In this document: positions 19,070 to 30,174 of the stretch, one piece after another
How the letters are laid out: every line of letters starts with the position of its first letter
Numbering within the stretch: the stretch's first letter is position 1
Source: Methylomonas sp.
GTDB taxonomy: Bacteria; Pseudomonadota; Gammaproteobacteria; Methylococcales; Methylomonadaceae
Direction: 5' to 3'
DNA length: 64,000 nucleotides
Assembly: GCA_026989395.1 (NCBI GenBank)
Contig: JALSJK010000087.1
Location: 1-64,000, forward strand
The notes under the pieces: generated by a model
Databases searched by the model: none
What the model saw: only the letters and a program-made list of their open reading frames with translations
Told to the model about the DNA's origin: nothing
Translations under genes and position numbers: made by a program

Positions 19070-19097
19070 TTGTTGTTACCTCATGAGGGGGATGAAA

Positions 19098-19991
19098 ATG
19101 AACTTTAAGAAAACAAAAATAGCGTTGGGTGTTGCGACTGCAGCACTAACAATGGCGGGTGTTTTGGTCGCACCTCAAGCTTCTGCAGCTTCAAAAGCAC
19201 AAAAAGTGGCAGCCGCCATGGATAAGAAAGTTGAAGCGATGGAAATGCAGATTCAGCAAATGTCTGGCATGATGGAAGCCATGCAGGCCGAGTTGCAACG
19301 CGTAAAAATGGAATCAGCCAACAACAATAATGACGGTCGTTTTATGGAGCTGGAAAACTGGATGGCTTCTGTGAAGAATGCGCCGGCTGTTGTTGAAAGT
19401 AAAGATAACATGTTATTTTTCCGTGGCGGTTGGGTGAAAAATAACCAATCAAGAGATGGTGTTTCCATTCACTCAGACACTATTATTGGTAGTGGCGCGT
19501 TTACAGGTACAGGAAATGGTGGTAAAGGAGATGATGAAGGTTGGTACCTTGGTGTTGGCCTTGACTTCAGCCTGACTGATAATTTATGGGGCTTCATGGA
19601 TAACACCGAAGTATTGGGCGAATTACAGGTCTTGTATAAAGATTTAGGTACAACCCATAGTAATATTCTTGCCGCAAGTAGAAATATTAATTCAAGACTA
19701 GTATCTGTTAATTCATTAACTGTTTCTGGATCACCAAAAATAAAATTCATGAAAGGCAGTAAATTCAGACCGTGGATTATTCCGATCGGTTTTACTATCA
19801 ATGTGATCAGTCCACCATCTGAAGCGATTACTGTTTTGAAGCCAGGTATGGTATTTGGATTAGGTGCTGACTACAACATCTGGGAAGATTTCTACCTGGG
19901 TGTTGATGGCCGCTATAACAACGTTGCTGATGTTGACGGTGTGGATATGGACGGCTTTGAAGTGGGTGCCTATATTGGTATCGGCTTCTAA
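19098..19991 (+). CDS. Outer membrane beta-barrel protein with N-terminal coiled coil
   Basis: Exported 297-residue protein. ATG 19098 is chosen because GAGGGGG (19085-19091) sits six bases before it; two other ATGs at 19083 and 19092 are too close or inside this site. The signal peptide ends ASA near residue 31. A coiled coil (about 45-80: MDKKVEAMEMQIQQMSGMM and AELQRVKME) precedes the barrel, as in trimeric or S-layer-linked porins. The barrel half has alternating aromatic strands such as GWYLGVGLDFSL, VLGELQVLYKDLG and FYLGVDGRYNNV, and ends in GAYIGIGF with the C-terminal Phe read by the BAM complex. It has its own promoter and a strong terminator, suggesting an abundant protein. Function not identified. 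Confidence 0.8.
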   Translation: MNFKKTKIALGVATAALTMAGVLVAPQASAASKAQKVAAAMDKKVEAMEMQIQQMSGMMEAMQAELQRVKMESANNNNDGRFMELENWMASVKNAPAVVESKDNMLFFRGGWVKNNQSRDGVSIHSDTIIGSGAFTGTGNGGKGDDEGWYLGVGLDFSLTDNLWGFMDNTEVLGELQVLYKDLGTTHSNILAASRNINSRLVSVNSLTVSGSPKIKFMKGSKFRPWIIPIGFTINVISPPSEAITVLKPGMVFGLGADYNIWEDFYLGVDGRYNNVADVDGVDMDGFEVGAYIGIGF

Positions 19992-20014: not shown

Positions 20015-20048
20015 AAAAAAGGGAGGGTTTAAAACCCCTCCCTTTTTT
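20015..20048 (+). terminator. Strong terminator after the outer-membrane-protein gene
   Basis: AAAAAAGGGAGGG (20015-20027) is perfectly complementary to CCCTCCCTTTTTT (20036-20048), with an 8-base loop and a 3' T tract. Confidence 0.92.
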
Positions 20049-20109
20049 GTTTCCGGTTTTTATTTTCAAAGTCACGCTGGAGAGAAAAATCAACAGGATA
20101 TCTTATTAT

Positions 20110-21102
20110 TTGAAGTGGCTGATTTTAAGTATCGTTTTTTTGTTAAATGCTTGTACCCTGGCTTATAAAAGCACCGGGAAAATAATGCTTGGCTATGCCG
20201 AAGATCAAGGCATTCCCTATGTTCTGGCAACGGATGATGCCACTTTGGGTTGTGACATGGCAACAGCATTCACGCCTTTTCTACTTAGTTTTTCTCAAGT
20301 TGCAGAGTCCCCCGATCATCTTGCTGTCTTGCTTTATATGATGGCAGGGAATTGTTCTGAAATTCAGGCATGGGAGCAGGAATTAAGGTATTTAAGAGCC
20401 GTTCACGCAAAAAATTCTTCTGAAGCACAGGATGCCCGGATTGCTCAACAAAGGTTTATACAGCAAGCTGCATTTAGACAACTGACGGGCTACCGCCATT
20501 TAATAGCTGCGATTATCGAGCCGGGTACGAAATGTCCGGATTTTTCTTCTGAACAAGATGAGTTTTATTGGTTAATCGGGCTACTTGATGGTCTACAGGC
20601 GGTCATTAATGATATTGCATCCGGGGGGCATGCCAATGTGCCGCTGGATATTGCAGCCAAAGTTGCTAGGGGTGCTGATTGCCTGGAAAATCAAAAATGG
20701 TGGGGCGTTCCGTACGCAATTCAGGCGGCAGTTTGGGCAATGCTTGCAGATCAAGAAAGTGATGAAAAACAGCCGTTACAAATGCTGGATCAGGCCGTCC
20801 AGATTGGTTTAGACCAAAATGTTGCTATTTCTCATGTCATGGCTGCGCAGGTTTATTTGGGGCTTGGAGATATTAGACGGGTCAAAAAAATCATCCGTGA
20901 ATTTGCTCAGGCTAAAGCATCATTTTCCAGGAATAAGTCTCATAAATTACTGAATAAAATTGCCTTTCTTCAAATTCAAGCTATTTCAGACAGACTTTGG
21001 ACCGAAGCGATGGGCAGGCGTACTCCAATGGCAAGGCTGGGAACATTCTGGGATGAGCGGAATGAAGCAGTGGATATTATCGATATTGATGATCTGCTTT
21101 AG
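20110..21102 (+). CDS. TatT-like lipoprotein (TRAP-associated helical-repeat protein)
   Basis: Probable periplasmic lipoprotein, about 330 residues, resembling the TatT component of TPR-associated TRAP transporters. The signal segment LKWLILSIVFLLNAC gives a lipobox with cysteine at residue 15. The body is helical: ATDDATLGCDMATAFTPFLLSFSQ and PDHLAVLLYMMAGNCSEIQAWEQELRYLRA match the TatT layout (conserved DD near the start, then helical repeats), and GLLDGLQAVINDI and VPLDIAAKVARGADCL follow. The start is uncertain: TTG 20110 fits the signal peptide, TTG 20047 lies inside the terminator, and the best ribosome-binding site (GGAGAG 20079-20084) points to an ATC at 20089. It is three bases from the MlaE-like gene. 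Confidence 0.7.
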   Translation: MKWLILSIVFLLNACTLAYKSTGKIMLGYAEDQGIPYVLATDDATLGCDMATAFTPFLLSFSQVAESPDHLAVLLYMMAGNCSEIQAWEQELRYLRAVHAKNSSEAQDARIAQQRFIQQAAFRQLTGYRHLIAAIIEPGTKCPDFSSEQDEFYWLIGLLDGLQAVINDIASGGHANVPLDIAAKVARGADCLENQKWWGVPYAIQAAVWAMLADQESDEKQPLQMLDQAVQIGLDQNVAISHVMAAQVYLGLGDIRRVKKIIREFAQAKASFSRNKSHKLLNKIAFLQIQAISDRLWTEAMGRRTPMARLGTFWDERNEAVDIIDIDDLL

Positions 21103-21105
21103 TTG

Positions 21106-21888
21106 ATGAATTTATTAGGTTGGTTAGGGCGTTTATGTATTGGGCCACTTGATTATGTAATAGATTTTACGGTATTTTTTTTGCGCGCCCTGGCTGTCTG
21201 GCAGCCACATCGAAACATTTTTAATCGCGCAGTCTATTCAGCAGTTTTAGGACAGCTGATTTTTACCGGCGTTGACGCAGTTGCGATGATATCATTTTTA
21301 GCCGTTGTCATGGGGATTGGCGTCACCTCGCAATTAATTTACATCATGCAAGCTATTACCGGTACTGGAGAAATTACTGAAATTCTTGCCAGATTATTAT
21401 TGAGCGAATTGGGACCTTTAATTACAGCAGTTATTTTGATTGGCCGATCCTGTTCGGCAATGGCTGTTGATTTGGGGAATACCAAAGTCCATGGTGAAAT
21501 ACAATCGTTGGAATATCTGGGCATTGATGTGGATGATTACTTTGTCGTACCAAGAATCCTCAGTATGGCGATATCCCAAGTGGTGCTGGCGCTTTATTTT
21601 TCAATTATCATGATAATTTGCGGGGTATTTTTTAGCGCTGCGATTTATCACTTTTCTGCGCTAAAGTCATTGACGGAGTTAATTAACACCATGAGCTTTA
21701 ATGTCCTTGGGGTGTTTTTTCTAAAAAATATTTTTTTCGGTTTGGTTATCGGTGCTCAAGCCTGCTTTCACGGTTTATCAGTGGGTGTTTCTCCAACGCA
21801 AGTGCCTCAGGAAATGCAGAGAGCGGTAATGAGAAGTTTGCTTTTCGTGTCTTTGATTGATGGCTATTTCATATTATTATCGCTGTGA
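21106..21888 (+). CDS. mlaE: MlaE-family MCE transporter permease
   Basis: Inner-membrane permease of the MlaE family, 260 residues with five to six hydrophobic segments, which partners MCE proteins in phospholipid or sterol transport. Family markers are FTGVDAVAMISFLAVVMGIGV, LLSELGPLITAVILIGRSCSA with the conserved ELGP, EIQSLEYLGIDVDDYFVVPR, and FFGLVIGAQACFHGL. ATG 21106 directly follows the previous stop (TAG-TTG-ATG). Its stop TGA overlaps the GTG of the next gene, so the permease and the ATPase-like protein are translationally coupled. Unlike the ATPase-like partner it looks intact. Confidence 0.92.
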   Translation: MNLLGWLGRLCIGPLDYVIDFTVFFLRALAVWQPHRNIFNRAVYSAVLGQLIFTGVDAVAMISFLAVVMGIGVTSQLIYIMQAITGTGEITEILARLLLSELGPLITAVILIGRSCSAMAVDLGNTKVHGEIQSLEYLGIDVDDYFVVPRILSMAISQVVLALYFSIIMIICGVFFSAAIYHFSALKSLTELINTMSFNVLGVFFLKNIFFGLVIGAQACFHGLSVGVSPTQVPQEMQRAVMRSLLFVSLIDGYFILLSL

Positions 21889-22640
21889 AGTTAGATGATT
21901 CTGCATTTATTGTTGCGACAGAAGCCGTACCTTATTCTGAAAATACAGAATTAACTTATCAGCCATTTAGTTGTTTGATAGAACCGTATGGGCTGCTTTG
22001 CCTAGTTGGGCCGCATCGTAGTCAACTACGGGATTATCTGTTTATGTTGGCAGGAATTTACCCGCCAAAGCGAGGCCAGGTTAAAATTTTTGATCGAGAT
22101 ACCCATGTGGATAGGGAGTGTTGGCGTAAAATGCGGACCCGGATTGGCTATCTCTCCGGTATTGCGCCGTTACTTTCTTCTCAGCATGGGTTGATGAACG
22201 TAATGTTGCCTGCACTTTATCATCAAAACAAAACTTTTCGCGAGACAGCAGATAGGGCCAGGCAATTATTAAGCGAACTTGAATGTGATTTCGATTTTTT
22301 GAGTTTTCCGGCAACGCTGAATAATTTTCAGCGATTGCAATTGGGCTTGGCTCGCGCTTTAATGCTTGATCCCGCTCTGCTTGTTTTTGATGTTCCATTT
22401 CACGATCTTGGAGCTAAACAACGTGAAATAATGGCCAGCTTACTGGGAAAATATCGACAAAAGCGAACTGTGTGTATGATCGGCGGCTTGCAATATCCAC
22501 GATTTTTGGAGCAACATGCTACTCAAATCAGTTTTATTTCAGAACAAAAAATTATTTGTTTTAATTCCTGGGCTGCTTTTATAAATTCGGAGGATGAAGA
22601 AGTGCAGGGTTTGATTAGCGGCCAAAAAAATGTGGAGTAG
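21885..22640 (+). CDS. Degenerate MlaF-like ABC ATPase (probable pseudoenzyme)
   Basis: ABC-transporter nucleotide-binding-domain fold of 251 residues in the MlaF position. Its catalytic motifs are gone. The Walker A slot reads GPHRSQLRD (42-50), with Leu48 where the lysine should be. The Q-loop slot reads GYLSGIAP. The signature slot reads TLNNFQRLQLGLARAL (144-159) instead of LSGGQ. Walker B reads LLVFDVPF (165-172), with Val170 replacing the catalytic Glu. The H-loop histidine is absent (MIGGLQYP). The fold is kept: LARALMLDPALL, the D-loop-like HDLGA and FLEQHATQ are all still aligned, and the frame is open and coupled to mlaE. This argues for a retained structural subunit rather than a decaying gene. 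Confidence 0.85.
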   Translation: MKLDDSAFIVATEAVPYSENTELTYQPFSCLIEPYGLLCLVGPHRSQLRDYLFMLAGIYPPKRGQVKIFDRDTHVDRECWRKMRTRIGYLSGIAPLLSSQHGLMNVMLPALYHQNKTFRETADRARQLLSELECDFDFLSFPATLNNFQRLQLGLARALMLDPALLVFDVPFHDLGAKQREIMASLLGKYRQKRTVCMIGGLQYPRFLEQHATQISFISEQKIICFNSWAAFINSEDEEVQGLISGQKNVE

Positions 22641-22649
22641 AATTAGTTA

Positions 22650-23669
22650 ATGAAGGCAGAAAACACAGAAAATTCCGGGCATTATATACATCGGATTAAA
22701 TATAATCGGCGAGAACGTCTGGTTGGTCTGTTTGTTTTTTCTGCGTTGGTATTGTTTGCAGCGCTGTTTTTTATCAGTAGTAAGAGCCAGCATCTTTTTG
22801 AGCCTCATATCAGGTACTATATGGAAGTCGAAACCAGTGAAGGAATCAGTCAGGGTAGTTCTGTAACATTTCTTGGAACAGAAATAGGGACAATTTCCAA
22901 ATTGGAGTTGGCGCATGGGCGAAAAATTCGCGTGGCTCTGGATATTTATAAGAGTCAGCGTGAATTGATCCGGACTGATGCAAAAGTGATTGTTAATCGC
23001 TTGATTAGTTTGGGCAATGCGCTTGTTGAAATTAAGGTAAGATCTTCTGATGCGCCGGTTTTACCAGAAGATTCAACTATTCCTGTTGAAGAAACCCCGT
23101 CACTAAATGATCTGGTTTTGGGAATCGCTAGAATTGTTCAGTCAACCGATACCAGTGTTTTTTCAGAAATAGCTGAAATGATGCCAAGACTTGAACAAAC
23201 GGTTGGAAATATTGACATTATTATTACCCAAATTGCAACTGGACATGGCACACTGGGAGCCGCTGTTTTTGATCAACAAGTTGAGCGCGAATTGAAACAA
23301 GTGGTGACTTCAGGGGCTGAGATATTATCCGAAACTGAAGGGGTTATCGATGTTGCAAAGCAAAGATTGGTGGAACTTGAGCCAGTGATATCAGGCATCA
23401 ATCAAGTGGTTAATGATTTTAAAGGGACAACCAGGGATCTTCCAAGGTTGGTGGCGGAGTTAGAGAAAACCATTGCATTAACTAATACTGCATTACAGCA
23501 AGTCAATCAGGAATTGCATCACTTGCCGGGCATTGCCCTGGATGTTCGCAGAACATTAACGGGAGCTGAAAAAGTGGTGGAAGGAGCGCAAGCCATATGG
23601 CCGTTATCGGAGGTGATTCAGAGGCCTGAAAATCAGCCATTAATACCGCCGCAGCCTTTGCATGATTAA
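22650..23669 (+). CDS. mlaD: MCE (MlaD-family) lipid-transport protein
   Basis: Periplasmic substrate-channel protein of 339 residues anchored by one N-terminal membrane helix (about 25-45: LVGLFVFSALVLFAALFFI). The MCE domain spans about 50-130: YYMEVETSEGISQGSSVTF, then LGTEIGTISKLELAHG, then VNRLISLGNALVEIK. The C-terminal 200 residues are helical with heptad-like Leu/Val spacing (MMPRLEQTVGNIDIIITQI), longer than in E. coli MlaD (183 residues), so it could form an extended tube or barrel. It ends in a proline-rich tail and overlaps the TPR lipoprotein gene by eight bases. Confidence 0.9.
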   Translation: MKAENTENSGHYIHRIKYNRRERLVGLFVFSALVLFAALFFISSKSQHLFEPHIRYYMEVETSEGISQGSSVTFLGTEIGTISKLELAHGRKIRVALDIYKSQRELIRTDAKVIVNRLISLGNALVEIKVRSSDAPVLPEDSTIPVEETPSLNDLVLGIARIVQSTDTSVFSEIAEMMPRLEQTVGNIDIIITQIATGHGTLGAAVFDQQVERELKQVVTSGAEILSETEGVIDVAKQRLVELEPVISGINQVVNDFKGTTRDLPRLVAELEKTIALTNTALQQVNQELHHLPGIALDVRRTLTGAEKVVEGAQAIWPLSEVIQRPENQPLIPPQPLHD

Positions 23670-24678
23670 AATTAATGTTTTTTTACCTGATATTTCAGTG
23701 TCTTGTCTGAAAATTATTTTTTTGACGCTGATTTTGGCCGGTTGTGCAATGCAACAGTCCCGTCCAGTAATTATCGAAGATGCTGAAAGGCTTAATAATG
23801 AAGGTGTACGGGCTTTTCAAGAAGCAAACTGGTATCGTGCAAAACAGTTGTTTTCCAAGTCATTATTGCTTTATCAGGGACTTGATAATCAGCAAGGAAT
23901 CTTGCTTTCCTATATCAATTTGATTGAGGTTGCTTTAGCAGCTGGAGATTTCCAAGCTGCTGAGAAATATTTAATCAATGTGACTGAAATAAATCAAGCA
24001 GAAGGTTTAAAACGTCATCGAAGACGTATCAATTTGCTGTTTTCAAAATTAGCGATTAAAAAAAAGCAGTTTGCCAAGGCTCAGCAATTTCTGTCAGTTC
24101 TGTTGCCGGAGTTTGATGGTATTAAGCCAAAATCAGCGCCGGATTTAATCCAGCTTTCAGCTATTGCCAATCAAACCCGTCTCGCATTTGAGCAAAATCA
24201 TGAGGCCAAACTCTGGACCCAAAGGTATGAAAGAGCCTTGAAGGTTGTAGATGTTGATGCCGGAGCTTTTCAAGGACTATTACTTCGATTTCAAGCAAAA
24301 TTACTGTTAAGAGAAAATAAATTTCAGCAAGCTGCGCAGAAATTGCAGCAAGCTTTGGCGGTTTATAAAGCCAGCCTGATTCAGCCTGGAATTGCTGCTA
24401 CGCTTTCAGACCTGGGGCAGCTTTATTTGGAGCAGGGTGATTGGTTGCAGGCGAAGCATTATTTTGCACGAGCTAACGTGGTGCTACGGTATATTGGTAA
24501 GCGTGATAAGATCATTATAAATACTGAAAAGCTTGCCATTATAGAATCGAAACTTGGTCATGTTGAACGAAGTAATCTAATTAGACGGTGGCTTGCAGAG
24601 CGTAAGGAAAACCAGCTGATGCAGGAAAAAAAATATCTGCCTTTATTGGAAGGTAAAGATTTTTTGCGGTCAGATTAA
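23662..24678 (+). CDS. TPR-repeat lipoprotein
   Basis: Lipoprotein of 338 residues with signal peptide LKIIFLTLILAGC (Cys about 28) and several tetratricopeptide repeats: ERLNNEGVRAFQEANWYRAK, LLSYINLIEVALAAGDFQAAEKYL, and LSDLGQLYLEQGDWLQAKHYFARA. It probably sits in the periplasm or on an outer membrane face and links parts of the transport machine, as PqiC-type lipoproteins do in other MCE systems, although it is not related to PqiC by sequence. The start overlaps mlaD by eight bases, so it belongs to the same unit. Confidence 0.85.
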   Translation: MIKINVFLPDISVSCLKIIFLTLILAGCAMQQSRPVIIEDAERLNNEGVRAFQEANWYRAKQLFSKSLLLYQGLDNQQGILLSYINLIEVALAAGDFQAAEKYLINVTEINQAEGLKRHRRRINLLFSKLAIKKKQFAKAQQFLSVLLPEFDGIKPKSAPDLIQLSAIANQTRLAFEQNHEAKLWTQRYERALKVVDVDAGAFQGLLLRFQAKLLLRENKFQQAAQKLQQALAVYKASLIQPGIAATLSDLGQLYLEQGDWLQAKHYFARANVVLRYIGKRDKIIINTEKLAIIESKLGHVERSNLIRRWLAERKENQLMQEKKYLPLLEGKDFLRSD

Positions 24679-24740
24679 GTTTTTAATAATCTTGAATCTC
24701 TGATTTCACTACGACACAGGTTAATGAGATAGACGCGCTT

Positions 24741-24776
24741 TTCATGCAAATACTTTTGCATGAACTGCTTTAGCAG
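24741..24776 (+). promoter_or_regulatory. Two tandem small hairpins between the TPR lipoprotein and DUF3095 genes
   Basis: TTCATGCAAA (24741-24750) pairs perfectly with TTTGCATGAA (24755-24764) over a 4-base loop. CTGCT-TT-AGCAG (24765-24776) follows with no gap. There is no T tract, so RNA processing, attenuation or stabilisation is more likely than simple termination. Confidence 0.5.
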
Positions 24777-24784
24777 AGACTTGG

Positions 24785-26092
24785 ATGGATTGTGACTTAG
24801 CAGTGTGTACGGAATTAGTTGTTAAAGTTATTTCATGCGCCGCTCCTAAGCCATTTCATAAAATAACAATGGCATCATCATTCAGCAAAGCCAGCCCTAT
24901 TAAAAATGATTGTAGATCCGTATTTTATGCCAATTTAAAATCATTCGATCATTTTCGAGGGGTTTTTAGCTCTACACATTACACGGAATTACCGCCAGAT
25001 TGGTCTGTTGTTATTACCGATATTGAAGGTTCTACTGAGGCAATACAGCAAGGAAAATATCGGCAAGTCAATGCAGTTGGTGTTGCATCAATTGTTGCTA
25101 TTTGCAATGCCTTGAAGCCATTACCAATTCCTTTTGTTTTTGGTGGCGATGGCGCAAGTTTGTGTATTCCCAATAATCATGTGGAAGTTGTTAAAAAGGC
25201 CTTAGTCGCTTCAAGATTGATGGCCAGCGAGCAGTTTTCTTTATCGCTTCGAGTAGGAATTGTACCTTGTGCCGACATCCATCAGTCGCAATATCGGGTG
25301 TTAGTGGCAAAATGTCAGATTTCGGAGGGTTATTACCAAGCGGTTTTTTCGGGAAAAGGATTGTTTTATGCTGAACAGTTGGTCAAAAATGACCGTGACA
25401 ATCACTATTGCTTAAATGCTGAAAGTATTTTGCCATTCGCAGATTTTTCTGGTTTTGAATGTCGATGGAAAGATGTGTTCAGTCCGCACGGTGAAACAAT
25501 TTCTCTGTTAGTGATGGCGATTGAAGAAAGCCCTGAAAGAAATAATGCAGTGTATTTGGATGCATTTGATGCAATACAGACGATTTATGGGCGGCCAACA
25601 ACCTGCCGACCAGTGCAAAAAAATAATTTGGAATTAACTGCCAATAGTAATAATTTACAAGATGAAGTGAAAATTAGGACTGGTTCTGGCAAAAGACTTT
25701 CAAAATGGCTGTATCCATTGTTATTGCCTTGGAAGGTTCGATTAGGGCGTCGTTGGATGGAAAATGAAAAGCAAATGTTTGGTATTGATTGGGGGAAATA
25801 TAAGGATGTTTTAACTGCCAATACAGATTTTCGTAAGTTTGATGATAATTTGCGCATGGTAATTTCTGGAACACCTGAACAAAGAGAGCAATTACTTAAA
25901 TATCTTGAAAAAACATATCAACAAGGATTGTTGGTTTATGGGGTGCATGTGTCTGATCGGGCGTTAATGACTTGTCTGATTTCTGATTACCATATCCATC
26001 ATATACACTTTGTTGATGCTGCAGAAGGGGGTTACGCGATGGCTGCCAAAGATTTAAAAAAACAATTAAAAGAAATAAGGAGTCTAAATTGA
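24785..26092 (+). CDS. DUF3095 protein (class III nucleotide cyclase-like)
   Basis: DUF3095 protein of about 435 residues. The N-terminal half carries a class III adenylate/guanylate cyclase-like pattern: VVITDIEGSTEAI with the first metal-binding aspartate (D79), and FGGDGASL with the second. FSLSLRVGIVPCADI and ADFSGFECRWKDVFSPHGE are DUF3095 landmarks, and the C-terminus ends HFVDAAEGGYAMAAKDLKKQL. There is no membrane segment, so it is cytosolic. The start is uncertain: ATG 24785 or ATG 24869, neither with a clear ribosome site. Its TGA overlaps the TTG of the binding-protein gene. It may make a signal that reports on, or controls, the transporter. Confidence 0.85.
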   Translation: MDCDLAVCTELVVKVISCAAPKPFHKITMASSFSKASPIKNDCRSVFYANLKSFDHFRGVFSSTHYTELPPDWSVVITDIEGSTEAIQQGKYRQVNAVGVASIVAICNALKPLPIPFVFGGDGASLCIPNNHVEVVKKALVASRLMASEQFSLSLRVGIVPCADIHQSQYRVLVAKCQISEGYYQAVFSGKGLFYAEQLVKNDRDNHYCLNAESILPFADFSGFECRWKDVFSPHGETISLLVMAIEESPERNNAVYLDAFDAIQTIYGRPTTCRPVQKNNLELTANSNNLQDEVKIRTGSGKRLSKWLYPLLLPWKVRLGRRWMENEKQMFGIDWGKYKDVLTANTDFRKFDDNLRMVISGTPEQREQLLKYLEKTYQQGLLVYGVHVSDRALMTCLISDYHIHHIHFVDAAEGGYAMAAKDLKKQLKEIRSLN

Positions 26093-27102
26093 AAAAATGT
26101 AACAGTGGCGGGTTCAGGATATTAATTATCTTTTTTTTCGTTTTTGGATCTCACCTGGTATTAGCAGAGGCAAAAAAAGTCTGTGTTTTTGATATTCTTG
26201 GCGCGAATGGTCCGGTTTTTACCCAGATGAAGGATTATAAACTCGCAGCAATGGACTGGGGGGCAGAACTTATTTTAAAGCCATATACCAATGAGCGTGT
26301 TGCTGCGGAAGATTTTAAAGCGGGTCTTTGTGATGCGGTGAGTTTTACTGGTGTTCGCGCTCGTCAATTCAATGCCTTTACCGGCAGTTTGGATGCTGCG
26401 GGCGCGATACCCAGCTATGAGTATTTAAAGTCGGTTATTGCGACAATCAGCGCTAAAAAAGCTGCTAAATTAATGAAAAGTGGTCCTTATGAGGTAGTTG
26501 GTATATTTCCTGGCGGAGCGGTTTATTTGTTTGTCAGAGACCGCAGTGTTGATACAGTGGGAGAATTGGCTGGTAAGCGTTTCGCGGTGATGGATTCTGA
26601 TCCTGCACAAACTGAGATGGTATCATTTGTGGGCGCTTCTCCTGTAGCGACTTCAATTGCCAATATGTATAGTAAATTTAATAATGGATCCGTTGATATC
26701 ACCTATGGCCCAGCAGTTATGTACGAAGCAATGGAGCTTTATAAAAGCTTGCAGCCTTCAGGTGGGGTTATTCGTTTTTCACTGGCACAGGTAACCATGC
26801 AAATTCTAATTAGGAGCAGTGAGTTTCCTGATGGGTTTGGCCAAAAATCCAGAGATTATTCGCTGAATCAGTTTGACCAAGGGGTAGATTTGTTGGCCCG
26901 ATATGAAAATAAAATCCCTGAAAAATTATGGATAGAAATTCCTGAGGCGGATAAGAGTCGCTACTCAGAAGTGTTTCGACAGTCTCGAATCAGGCTTAGA
27001 GATAAGGGTATTTATAACAGTAAGATGTTGAAAGTCATGAGGATGGTGCGCTGTAAAAAAGACCCGCTTCAACCTGAATGTACAGCGGCTGATAAAGAAT
27101 AG
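26089..27102 (+). CDS. AdeT1/AdeT2-like periplasmic solute-binding protein
   Basis: Periplasmic binding protein of 337 residues, like the AdeT-type putative solute-binding proteins found with TRAP permeases. The TTG start at 26089 is supported by AAGGAG at 26077-26082. A signal peptide (FRILIIFFFVFGSHLVLAEA) precedes VCVFDILGANGPVFTQMKDY. Later landmarks are CDAVSFTGVRARQFNAFTGS, GSLDAAGAIPSYEYLKS, and ELAGKRFAVMDSDPAQTEMV. Two cysteines near the C-terminus (MVRCKK and PECTAADKE) may form a disulfide. It overlaps the DUF3095 gene and is followed 50 bases later by the TRAP permease, so it is the likely ligand carrier of that transporter. The ligand is unknown. Confidence 0.82.
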   Translation: MKKCNSGGFRILIIFFFVFGSHLVLAEAKKVCVFDILGANGPVFTQMKDYKLAAMDWGAELILKPYTNERVAAEDFKAGLCDAVSFTGVRARQFNAFTGSLDAAGAIPSYEYLKSVIATISAKKAAKLMKSGPYEVVGIFPGGAVYLFVRDRSVDTVGELAGKRFAVMDSDPAQTEMVSFVGASPVATSIANMYSKFNNGSVDITYGPAVMYEAMELYKSLQPSGGVIRFSLAQVTMQILIRSSEFPDGFGQKSRDYSLNQFDQGVDLLARYENKIPEKLWIEIPEADKSRYSEVFRQSRIRLRDKGIYNSKMLKVMRMVRCKKDPLQPECTAADKE

Positions 27103-27152
27103 CCAGTGTAAAAAATGGCCACTCAAGTTACTTTGAATAATTTGTTGGCATC

Positions 27153-29204
27153 ATGGTATTGACGGGTAAGCTTCCAAAGCGCCGCTGGTGGGAGTGGTTT
27201 GCCACTTTGCCGGTTTTCATTATTTTATTGACGATCATTCTCGCAGGGAACAGCGAAAAATTACATGCACAATTGCTAAAAGCGGGTGAATATTTGTGGC
27301 AAGATTATTTCTTGCTGCGAGATGATATTGCCAGCCCTGAATGTAATCCTAACCTGGACATTGAGGCAGAACTTAACAAGCTTGATGCAGAAACCGATGA
27401 CCTGGATATGCTGTTTGATGATGAGCCTTTTAACCGGAAAGCGGCTCGCACATCTTTGGAAAAATCTCAGGCATTGTGTGTGGAAAAGCATCGACTTGCC
27501 GAGAACAATCAGGCCAGAGTGACATTTGCAGTAAAAATATTTCGCAGTGTTGAAAAAAGTGTTGCTGCAATCAGTATTTTAACCCATAGAAAACAACGGG
27601 AAATACTGCTGTTGCTGTTATTTATTTGTGCCATTACCTGTTCGATAAGACAGCAACATATTGCTTTTAAACCAGTGATTACCCTGCTGGATCAGCGAGT
27701 TTCTGCAACAGCGCAGTTGCTTGGAAATATATTGTTGCTGATTTCTGCCTGGAATTATCGCGATAAAGTTTTTCAGGCATCGGCTGTCGTTGATTATCCT
27801 GATATATTTCCGTTATTGATTACCGGTTTTGCAATCTTAAGTGCGGTCAGTGTTTATCTGTTATTTAAGCCGCGATCCGGCATTAAACCGGGAGGGACAA
27901 TTACTCATGCATTATTGGCGACGCCGTTATATGTCATTATGGCGTTATTTGCGGCTAAATATTTTTTTCTGACAGAAGGGCATTCCGCTGGATTAGCGAT
28001 TTTTTTTAGTTTATTAATAGACCAGGCAGGATTATTTCTTAATATCGGCTTGTATATCTGGACAGGGATGTTGTTAAAGCAAACTCGTCTAGGCGAGCGA
28101 TTGTTTAATGTGTTCAAACCTTGGCGAATGTCGCCGGAGGTATTAGCTTTTGTGGCTATTGTTATTATGGCTTTGCCGACGGCTTATACCGGTGCTTCCG
28201 GGATTATTATTATTGCTATGGGGGCAATTATTTATAAAGAGTTACGGCGCGTTGGTGCTCGCAGGCAGCTTGCTCTGGCGGCAACAGCAATGACTGGCAG
28301 TGCTGGTGTCGTATTGCGGCCATGTTTATTGGTGGTGTTGATTGCCGCATTAAATAAGGAAGTGGTCACCGATCAGTTGTTTGACTGGGGGCTAAATACT
28401 TTTTTCACAACGATTATGGTGTTCTGGTTTTTTGTGTTTTTGACCCGGCAGGAAAAAATTCGTATTGCTCCAGCGCGGGAGGCTTTTCCTGTCTTTGTGC
28501 AAGCATTGCGTCCTTTGGTTCCCTATGCTGTTATTTTGATTGTCGTTTACTTCCTGTATGTGTTCCTACTAAATGCCTATCTGGATGAATTTTCGGCGCC
28601 GGTGATTCTGCCAGTGATGATTTTGGGTTTGGTTATATATGAAAAATTGTATCCAAAAGGTATTTCTGCCGAAAGTCCTCAACGGGAAGTTCGAAGTTTT
28701 GAAGCGGCGATTAGGTCGGCCTCATCTGAGGCTAGTATCCATATTGGAGCATTGTTATTATTGATGGGGTTGTCTTTTGTTCTCGGGGGTGTGGTTGAAA
28801 GGTCTGGGCTGTTGGGTTTTTTCCCGCATCATTTTGATTCAATTTGGTTGGCATTGGTTTTTTTGATTATGGTATTGATCGGGATTGGTATGGTTATGGA
28901 TCCTTTTGGCGCAGTAGTATTGGTTTCAGGGACAGTGGCGCAAATTGCCTATAAAAATGGTATCGAACCGGTTCATTTTTGGATGATGACCTTGGTTGCA
29001 TTTGAATTGGGTTATCTTAGTCCTCCCGTGGCTTTGAACCATCTTCTGACCAAGCAAATGGTGGGTCATGCAGAGGCAACAATAGCGGCGCAAGGAGGCG
29101 GCAATTTTTGGTATCGGCATGAAAGGATTTTATTGCCTTTGATAACGATGACAACAACCTTGGTGTTGGTTAGTGTTGTACCTATTTTAGCGGCTGAATG
29201 GTAG
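27153..29204 (+). CDS. TRAP transporter large permease (DctM-like) with N-terminal extension
   Basis: Polytopic inner-membrane protein of 683 residues. From about residue 300 onward it follows the DctM large-permease pattern: ALPTAYTGASGIIIIAMGAI, then ATAMTGSAGVVLRPCLLVVL, then MVMDPFGAVVLVSGTVAQIA and ELGYLSPPVALNHLLTKQM, the family signature. The first part has one membrane helix (about 17-32), a soluble loop of about 100 residues rich in Asp and Glu (EAELNKLDAETDDLDMLFDD), and further helices that probably stand in for the small DctQ subunit. Transport should be driven by an ion gradient. It is the likely energised permease for the binding protein before it. Confidence 0.88.
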   Translation: MVLTGKLPKRRWWEWFATLPVFIILLTIILAGNSEKLHAQLLKAGEYLWQDYFLLRDDIASPECNPNLDIEAELNKLDAETDDLDMLFDDEPFNRKAARTSLEKSQALCVEKHRLAENNQARVTFAVKIFRSVEKSVAAISILTHRKQREILLLLLFICAITCSIRQQHIAFKPVITLLDQRVSATAQLLGNILLLISAWNYRDKVFQASAVVDYPDIFPLLITGFAILSAVSVYLLFKPRSGIKPGGTITHALLATPLYVIMALFAAKYFFLTEGHSAGLAIFFSLLIDQAGLFLNIGLYIWTGMLLKQTRLGERLFNVFKPWRMSPEVLAFVAIVIMALPTAYTGASGIIIIAMGAIIYKELRRVGARRQLALAATAMTGSAGVVLRPCLLVVLIAALNKEVVTDQLFDWGLNTFFTTIMVFWFFVFLTRQEKIRIAPAREAFPVFVQALRPLVPYAVILIVVYFLYVFLLNAYLDEFSAPVILPVMILGLVIYEKLYPKGISAESPQREVRSFEAAIRSASSEASIHIGALLLLMGLSFVLGGVVERSGLLGFFPHHFDSIWLALVFLIMVLIGIGMVMDPFGAVVLVSGTVAQIAYKNGIEPVHFWMMTLVAFELGYLSPPVALNHLLTKQMVGHAEATIAAQGGGNFWYRHERILLPLITMTTTLVLVSVVPILAAEW

Positions 29205-29214
29205 GGTTGATAAA

Positions 29215-30174
29215 ATGAAAAAACTTTTTCCGGAAATCCAGCCTTTTCATACATTTTTTCTGGAAACTGGAAATCAGCATTCTGTTTATGTTGAGCAATC
29301 AGGAAACCCTAATGGATTGCCGGTAATTTTTTTGCATGGCGGTCCCTGCTCAGGAACCAGGCCGGATCACCGACGATTTTTTCATCCTGAAAAATACCAC
29401 ATAATCTTGTTTGATCAGCGAGCTTGTGGGTTGTCTTTGCCATTTGGTGAAATTGAAAACAATACTACGCAAGACTTACTGAATGATATGGAAAGCATTA
29501 GAAAACTGCTTGACATTAAAAAATGGGTGTTGTTTGGCGGATCATGGGGGGCGACACTTGCACTGTTGTATGCGCAACAATTTACACAGCATGTTGAAGC
29601 TATGATTCTAAGGGGTGTTTTTTTAGCGAGACAAAAAGACCTGGACTGGTTTCTACAGGAAGGCGCCGGGCGAATTTACCCTGAACAATGGCATCATTTG
29701 GTGGAAAGCTTGCCCGGTTCAAAATGCCAAGCTTTACTGGAAAGAATTTGTGAGGGGTTATGGGGTGAAGATGAGGTGGCGCGTTTAAGAGTGGCAAGGG
29801 AATGGGATAATTGGGGGGGACAGGTTGCTTTGGGAGAAGAATATCAGGTTTTGCAGCATGACAATCACGTGAGTCAGAAATTGCTAAAACAGGTGCGAAT
29901 GGAATTGCACTATGCGAAAAATCATTATTTTATTGACGAGAATCAGATACTAAATAATTGCCATAGGATAAGTAATGTCCGAACGGTCATCATCCATGGT
30001 CGAAACGACTTTGTTTGCCCAATTGAGGCCGGCTACAGCCTTCATCGCGCATTACCTGATGCCGAATACATAGTTTTGCCAAATGCCGGTCATGTTGCTC
30101 AAGGAGAAGAGATGATTGATAGCTTGGTTACGGCCACAGAAAAAAATTATGCTGAAATTTCCGGCGAACTATGA
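29215..30174 (+). CDS. pip: Prolyl iminopeptidase-like alpha/beta hydrolase
   Basis: Alpha/beta hydrolase of the proline iminopeptidase family (319 residues), which releases N-terminal proline from peptides. The oxyanion HGGP is present (FLHGGPCSGTRPDHRRFF), the nucleophile elbow is FGGSWGATLALLYAQ, the acid is in HGRNDFVCP and the histidine in PNAGHVAQGEE. Two usual motifs vary: HGGPGGG is HGGPCSG here, and DQRGCGRS is DQRACGLS, so substrate range may differ. It starts 10 bases after the TRAP permease stop and may be co-transcribed with it, but a functional link to that transporter is unproven. Confidence 0.82.
   Translation: MKKLFPEIQPFHTFFLETGNQHSVYVEQSGNPNGLPVIFLHGGPCSGTRPDHRRFFHPEKYHIILFDQRACGLSLPFGEIENNTTQDLLNDMESIRKLLDIKKWVLFGGSWGATLALLYAQQFTQHVEAMILRGVFLARQKDLDWFLQEGAGRIYPEQWHHLVESLPGSKCQALLERICEGLWGEDEVARLRVAREWDNWGGQVALGEEYQVLQHDNHVSQKLLKQVRMELHYAKNHYFIDENQILNNCHRISNVRTVIIHGRNDFVCPIEAGYSLHRALPDAEYIVLPNAGHVAQGEEMIDSLVTATEKNYAEISGEL

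Follow-up and report, generated by a model that had tools for sequence, protein, structure and literature searches.

Gene Content and Boundaries of the Cluster

The window, a stretch of 64,000 nucleotides from a Methylomonas sp. contig (JALSJK010000087.1), carries between positions 20110 and 29204 a set of eight ORFs that lie on one strand and are overlapping or closely spaced. The features of this region are the following:

20018..20050, no strand assigned: terminator-like hairpin, AAAAAAGGGAGGGTTTAAAACCCCTCCCTTTTTT, near-symmetrical on both strands
20110..21102, + strand: T1, TatT-like helical lipoprotein, putative T component of a TPAT module; TTG start, lipobox LNAC
21103..21888, + strand: MlaE-family permease of the MCE cassette; PF02405 7.6e-42
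21885..22640, + strand: putative pseudo-MlaF, ABC nucleotide-binding-domain homologue; ABC_tran 5.2e-6 (Pfam)
22650..23669, + strand: MCE protein; PF02470 (MlaD) 3.6e-11; one TM helix, one MCE domain
23662..24678, + strand: TPR lipoprotein of the MCE cassette; PF13424 (TPR_12) 3.5e-11; lipobox LAGC
24869..26092, + strand: DUF3095 protein; PF11294 2.9e-128 to 3.7e-128
26089..27102, + strand: AdeT-type TRAP solute-binding protein, P component; PF19582 (AdeT1_2) 2.7e-84, DctP 2e-4
27153..29204, + strand: fused DctQM TRAP permease; PF06808 (DctM) 4.4e-14

The Pfam assignments of the cluster proteins concurred with those of NCBIfam, so that the eight same-strand genes and the families named for them in a preliminary description of this DNA were recovered, with domain support for every gene except the TatT-like one. 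That description had also presented the region as a cluster joining an MCE system to a TRAP transporter, which is accurate as to gene content, but the cluster is composed of two separable modules, as discussed below.

The hairpin stands between an upstream outer-membrane-protein gene and the cluster, and since the ORF start at 20047 falls inside it, the start at 20110 was preferred for T1. For the DUF3095 gene, the ORF opens at 24785 and the likely ATG start is at 24869. At the other end, a prolyl aminopeptidase gene on the same strand begins at 29215, 10 nt past the permease gene. An AT-rich hairpin (24743-24763, CATGCAAA-TAC-TTTTGCATG) was also observed past the TPR gene, ahead of the DUF3095 gene. 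The predicted outer-membrane protein upstream (19083-19991) has the same placement in the genomes G001 and G004, and an ORF resembling it lies near the unlinked cassette of G590 (L174).

The DUF3095 gene accompanies the cluster in three g1 genomes, and a partial match was found near TRAP genes in L055. A PDB search with its product returned no relative. By eye, its DIEGST...GGDG motifs look like those of class III nucleotidyl cyclases, and Pfam returns DUF3095 alone.

The MCE Cassette and Its Degenerate ATPase

The genes for MlaE, pseudo-MlaF, the MCE protein and the TPR lipoprotein stay together as a unit of four, in nearly all copies of which the TPR lipoprotein gene comes after the MCE gene. 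The MCE protein has a helical C-terminal region of ~190 residues and a profile match to Mce1B (8fed_B, residues 29-279, 3.2e-10); no needle geometry is claimed for it, because its structure model is of low confidence. The arrangement of a PqiA/LetA-type membrane protein with multiple MCE domains was not the case here, the membrane protein being MlaE (PF02405) and the MCE domain single, and no gene for MlaB (STAS) or MlaC was found among the cluster ORFs. These four genes form a distinct gammaproteobacterial MCE cassette.

Intact nucleotide-binding motifs of an ABC transporter are absent from the MlaF-like protein of the cluster, as the preliminary description had stated, and each loss was confirmed by aligning it with the intact MlaF proteins of the same genome. 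The Walker A region reads GPHRSQLR, with no Lys; the signature reads LNNFQR; the Walker B reads FDVP, with no Glu; and the H-loop reads GGLQ, with no His. Close orthologues carry the same substitutions (GPHRxQLR, DVP, GGLQ), and the gene has a dN/dS of 0.06 relative to the nearest species. Since the substitutions are conserved and the gene is under such purifying selection, it is not a decaying pseudogene, and its product can be classified from these motifs as a maintained pseudo-ATPase. Outside the cluster, the same genome encodes two further MlaE/MlaF sets, both with an intact MlaF, and its separate mlaFED operon contains a STAS-like gene. Neither these two sets nor the prolyl aminopeptidase gene had been noticed in the preliminary description.

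These intact proteins raise the question of whether the cassette is still driven by ATP, with MlaE/pseudo-MlaF borrowing an intact MlaF from another locus, either in a mixed dimer or in place of pseudo-MlaF. Both intact MlaF proteins, however, have MlaE partners of their own, and pseudo-MlaF stays beside its MlaE in intact cassettes under strong constraint, and this is among the least probable of the explanations considered here.

The loss of catalytic motifs had been taken in the preliminary description as a reason to propose that the TRAP permease powers the MCE tube, on the premise that MCE systems are normally ABC-driven. This premise overlooks PqiABC and LetAB, two MCE systems that include no ABC ATPase (PMC10897342). 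Moreover, when a class-wide sample of gammaproteobacterial genomes was searched, the four-gene cassette was also found in other families, and an AdeT search over the same sample found none in the genomes carrying it. The cassette MlaF of one of these genomes (G100) retains an intact Walker A (GPSGSGKT), Walker B (LDEP) and H-loop (THH), that of two others (G143 and G196) shows intermediate degradation, and that of a further four (G185, G277, G299 and G394) is degenerate, with no AdeT found in the genomes. Within Methylococcales, degenerate MlaF was likewise observed, with no TPAT found, in the cassette of G549 and in the more distant cassettes of G595, a complete genome, and G471.

Degenerate MlaF in genomes without detected TPAT indicates that ATPase loss is independent of the TRAP link, and since this loss is recurrent in this MCE family, it provides no argument that TRAP supplies the energy. 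The inference from a dead ATPase to a TRAP-powered tube thus fails against the degenerate proteins of these genomes, and the loss is a family trend, not a sign of TRAP power. For the same reason, a joint origin of ATPase loss and TRAP linkage was rejected. As a separate observation, the cassette loci of G100 (L205, 7247-8755), G143 (L210, 6332-7126) and G196 (L209, 6949-7698), with an intact or half-degraded MlaF, illustrate in nature how the ATPase is lost step by step.

The TRAP Module

The remaining genes include a binding protein of the DctP superfamily, which matches TRAP_S1 (1.5e-11) besides the models listed above, and a fused DctQM permease of 683 aa, in which DctM spans 254-677 and is preceded by additional N-terminal TM segments. 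The permease profile matched the isethionate DctMQ 9pym_A (2.7e-4), and hydropathy predicted a periplasmic insert of ~110 aa between TM helices 1 and 2. In this insert, which belongs to the DctQ-like part of the permease, C64 and C109 are invariant over seven homologues, and a docking domain is conceivable. In a weak alignment to 4p1e, an Ala of the AdeT-type protein falls on the position of the TRAP selectivity Arg; because of the weakness of this alignment, the substitution is a mere hint of a non-carboxylate ligand.

The identity of T1 is less direct. The TatT Pfam model (PF16811) matched 0/48 homologues, and profile searches of T1 against PDB and Pfam returned no match. Its structure was modeled at pLDDT 92, and Foldseek related it, among other matches, to the TPAT-family protein 8g53 with a probability of 0.99, but with an E-value of 0.17 and a TM-score by target of 0.54, and to the sterol transporter 7t1s with a probability of 1.00, but with an E-value of 0.06 and a TM-score by target of 0.43. 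Since these E-values exceed 0.05 and the TM-scores are modest, the fold match is no more than suggestive. The T1 gene is present at most of the best 80 related TRAP loci, which makes the contextual evidence strong, and it is genomic context and predicted fold alone that suggest a TatT-like protein.

These 80 loci were retained from a permease profile scan of ~85,000 species genomes. The TatT-like/AdeT/DctQM trio occurs together at most of them, and its carriers are chiefly marine hydrocarbon degraders and methanotrophs; outside Methylococcales, the trio loci among the best 80 belong mostly to Marinobacter, Oleispira, Oleiphilus, Alcanivorax, Ketobacter and similar genera. This agrees with the published distribution, in which the TPAT systems of free-living proteobacteria are found mostly in hydrocarbon degraders (PMC5812351). 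The trio has the gene content expected of a TPAT-type TRAP system, with T1 as the putative T component, and is identified as such on the basis of these comparisons. TatT has a hydrophobic pore, and the TPAT ligand is thought to be hydrophobic (PMC5812351), with which the earlier argument for a lipid-like ligand is consistent.

Linkage and Co-Occurrence of the Two Modules

Among 311 genomes of the order Methylococcales, mostly MAGs, close orthologues of the cassette MlaE were found in 17, one of them a pseudogene, and the TPAT permease in 20, with both modules present in 14. This co-occurrence gave a Fisher p of 4e-17 over the 311 genomes when kinship was ignored, and a p of 7e-4 at the genus level, a coarse control for kinship. 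The modules are adjacent only in Methylococcales, in 11 of the 311 genomes (11/14 of those with both), and the 11 linked loci display at least four gene orders:

T1-E-F-D-TPR-DUF-SBP-PERM (the order of the cluster itself)
E-F-D-TPR divergent from DUF-T1-SBP-PERM
T1-SBP-PERM-E-F-D-TPR
T1-SBP-T1-SBP-PERM-E-F-D-TPR

The cassette was even relocated within one conserved locus, as the DHODH/thiO and aminopeptidase flanks are common to the window and G004. In three genomes both modules are present and unlinked, and in one of these, G589, they sit on separate large contigs. The MlaE tree is largely congruent with that of the permease, also for the three unlinked pairs. In G596 (98% complete), MlaE is full of stops, the cassette MCE gene is absent and so is TPAT. 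The cassette was also found without detected TPAT in G601 (66% complete) and G549 (85% complete), and the TRAP permease without a close cassette in six Methylococcales genomes.

Because the modules are adjacent across rearrangements, co-occur when unlinked and have largely agreeing trees, their functional association in this lineage is well supported, and the link between the MCE and TRAP halves drawn in the preliminary description was upheld for Methylococcales. Co-inheritance, together with the loss of TRAP and the decay of the cassette in G596, further supports a shared pathway. The modules are neighbors in this order alone; ~60 TPAT loci outside it, among the best 80, have no MCE genes nearby. 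Open-access PMC literature on MCE-TRAP, AdeT-MlaE, degenerate MlaF and methanotroph MCE systems was searched, and no earlier description of a pairing between an MCE cassette and TPAT was found there.

Proposed Mechanism and Alternatives

These results altogether favor, with a probability of roughly 60%, a two-module envelope system that moves a hydrophobic molecule in Methylococcales methanotrophs and that is probably one pathway, not one TRAP-powered machine. Each module would most likely carry hydrophobic molecules through the envelope, TRAP by driven uptake and MCE as a passive or differently energized conduit. The data show the gene content, the missing catalytic motifs in a gene under purifying selection, the linkage and the co-inheritance, from which we infer the subcellular arrangement, the ligand, the direction of transport and any physical contact between the modules. 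On the TRAP side, the T component would take the hydrophobic ligand and hand it to the binding protein, from which it would pass to the ion-gradient-driven permease. On the MCE side, MlaE would form the base in the inner membrane, and the MCE protein, helical tail included, may build a channel that crosses the periplasm and is capped or docked by the TPR lipoprotein, while pseudo-MlaF would be retained for a structural or regulatory role. The conduit, whether passive, regulated by the pseudo-ATPase or otherwise energized, would move a lipid identical to the TRAP substrate or metabolically linked with it; fatty acids, hydrocarbons or membrane lipids are candidate ligands suggested by the context.

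Counting against a joint pathway, each module also occurs alone, TPAT without nearby MCE genes and cassettes without detected TPAT. Two independent transport systems that became neighbors by chance and vertical descent would account for this, and for a pairing limited to one methanotroph family; since adjacency is confined to that family, its being a neutral arrangement through shared ancestry is possible. However, linkage was kept across at least four gene orders, the cassette was relocated inside the same locus, and the modules co-occur even when unlinked, which renders full independence unlikely, though it is the alternative that survives best.

Slightly less probable is the original proposal that, the cassette ATPase being dead, the MCE tube is powered, or directly supplied with substrate, by the TRAP permease and its ion gradient. 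Linkage through rearrangements, co-inheritance, the co-loss in G596 and the plausibility of hydrophobic ligands for both modules would all fit it; however, MlaF is equally degenerate where TPAT was not detected (G549, G595, G471, G185, G277 and G299), so that no compensation by TRAP is needed, and the modules lie on different large contigs in G589. In its strictest form, in which TRAP and the pseudo-ATPase MCE complex make up one physical trans-envelope machine and lipids or hydrocarbons are driven through the MCE tube by the ion gradient instead of ATP, it is marginally more doubtful again. A single TRAP-powered machine is, in short, possible but not favored over the two-module pathway.

Comparison with Known Systems

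The cassette resembles MlaFEDB(C) in having an MlaE permease, an MCE protein and an MlaF-like protein in one operon, but its MlaF lacks catalytic motifs, genes for MlaB and MlaC are absent from the cluster, the MCE protein is ~2x as long, and there is an extra TPR lipoprotein. With PqiABC and LetAB it shares the condition of an MCE system without its own ABC ATPase, and PqiABC likewise includes a lipoprotein, in its case one of the outer membrane; however, PqiA/LetA belong to another inner-membrane family, whereas the cluster keeps MlaE and a putative pseudo-ATPase. A long helical or extended part behind the MCE domain is also found in mycobacterial Mce1, to whose Mce1B the cluster protein has its profile match, and in the Veillonella MlaD bridge, but the cluster has neither an Mce1-type operon nor a working ATPase beside its single MCE gene. 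BstABC, the sterol transport system of Methylococcus capsulatus, is likewise from a methanotroph, and the T1 model resembles a sterol transporter entry (7t1s); unlike BstABC, the cluster contains no recognized homologue of BstA (RND) or BstB (phosphonate-binding-type). An MCE family whose ATPase is intact in some members, degraded in others and, in the clade associated with a secondary transporter, conserved as a pseudo-ATPase provides a direct comparative test of the energy source of MCE conduits that lack a working ATPase and of the direction of lipid flow.

The TRAP module finds its counterpart in the TPAT (TPR-protein-associated TRAP) system of Treponema pallidum (TatT/TatPT/TatQM), in which a helical T lipoprotein, a periplasmic binding protein and a fused QM permease are co-encoded, a type also known from hydrocarbon-degrading proteobacteria. 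It differs from the treponemal system in that T1 has no TatT Pfam match, the binding protein is AdeT-type and an MCE cassette is attached. TPAT transporters, whose ligands are unproven, gain in this cassette a lipid-handling genetic partner.
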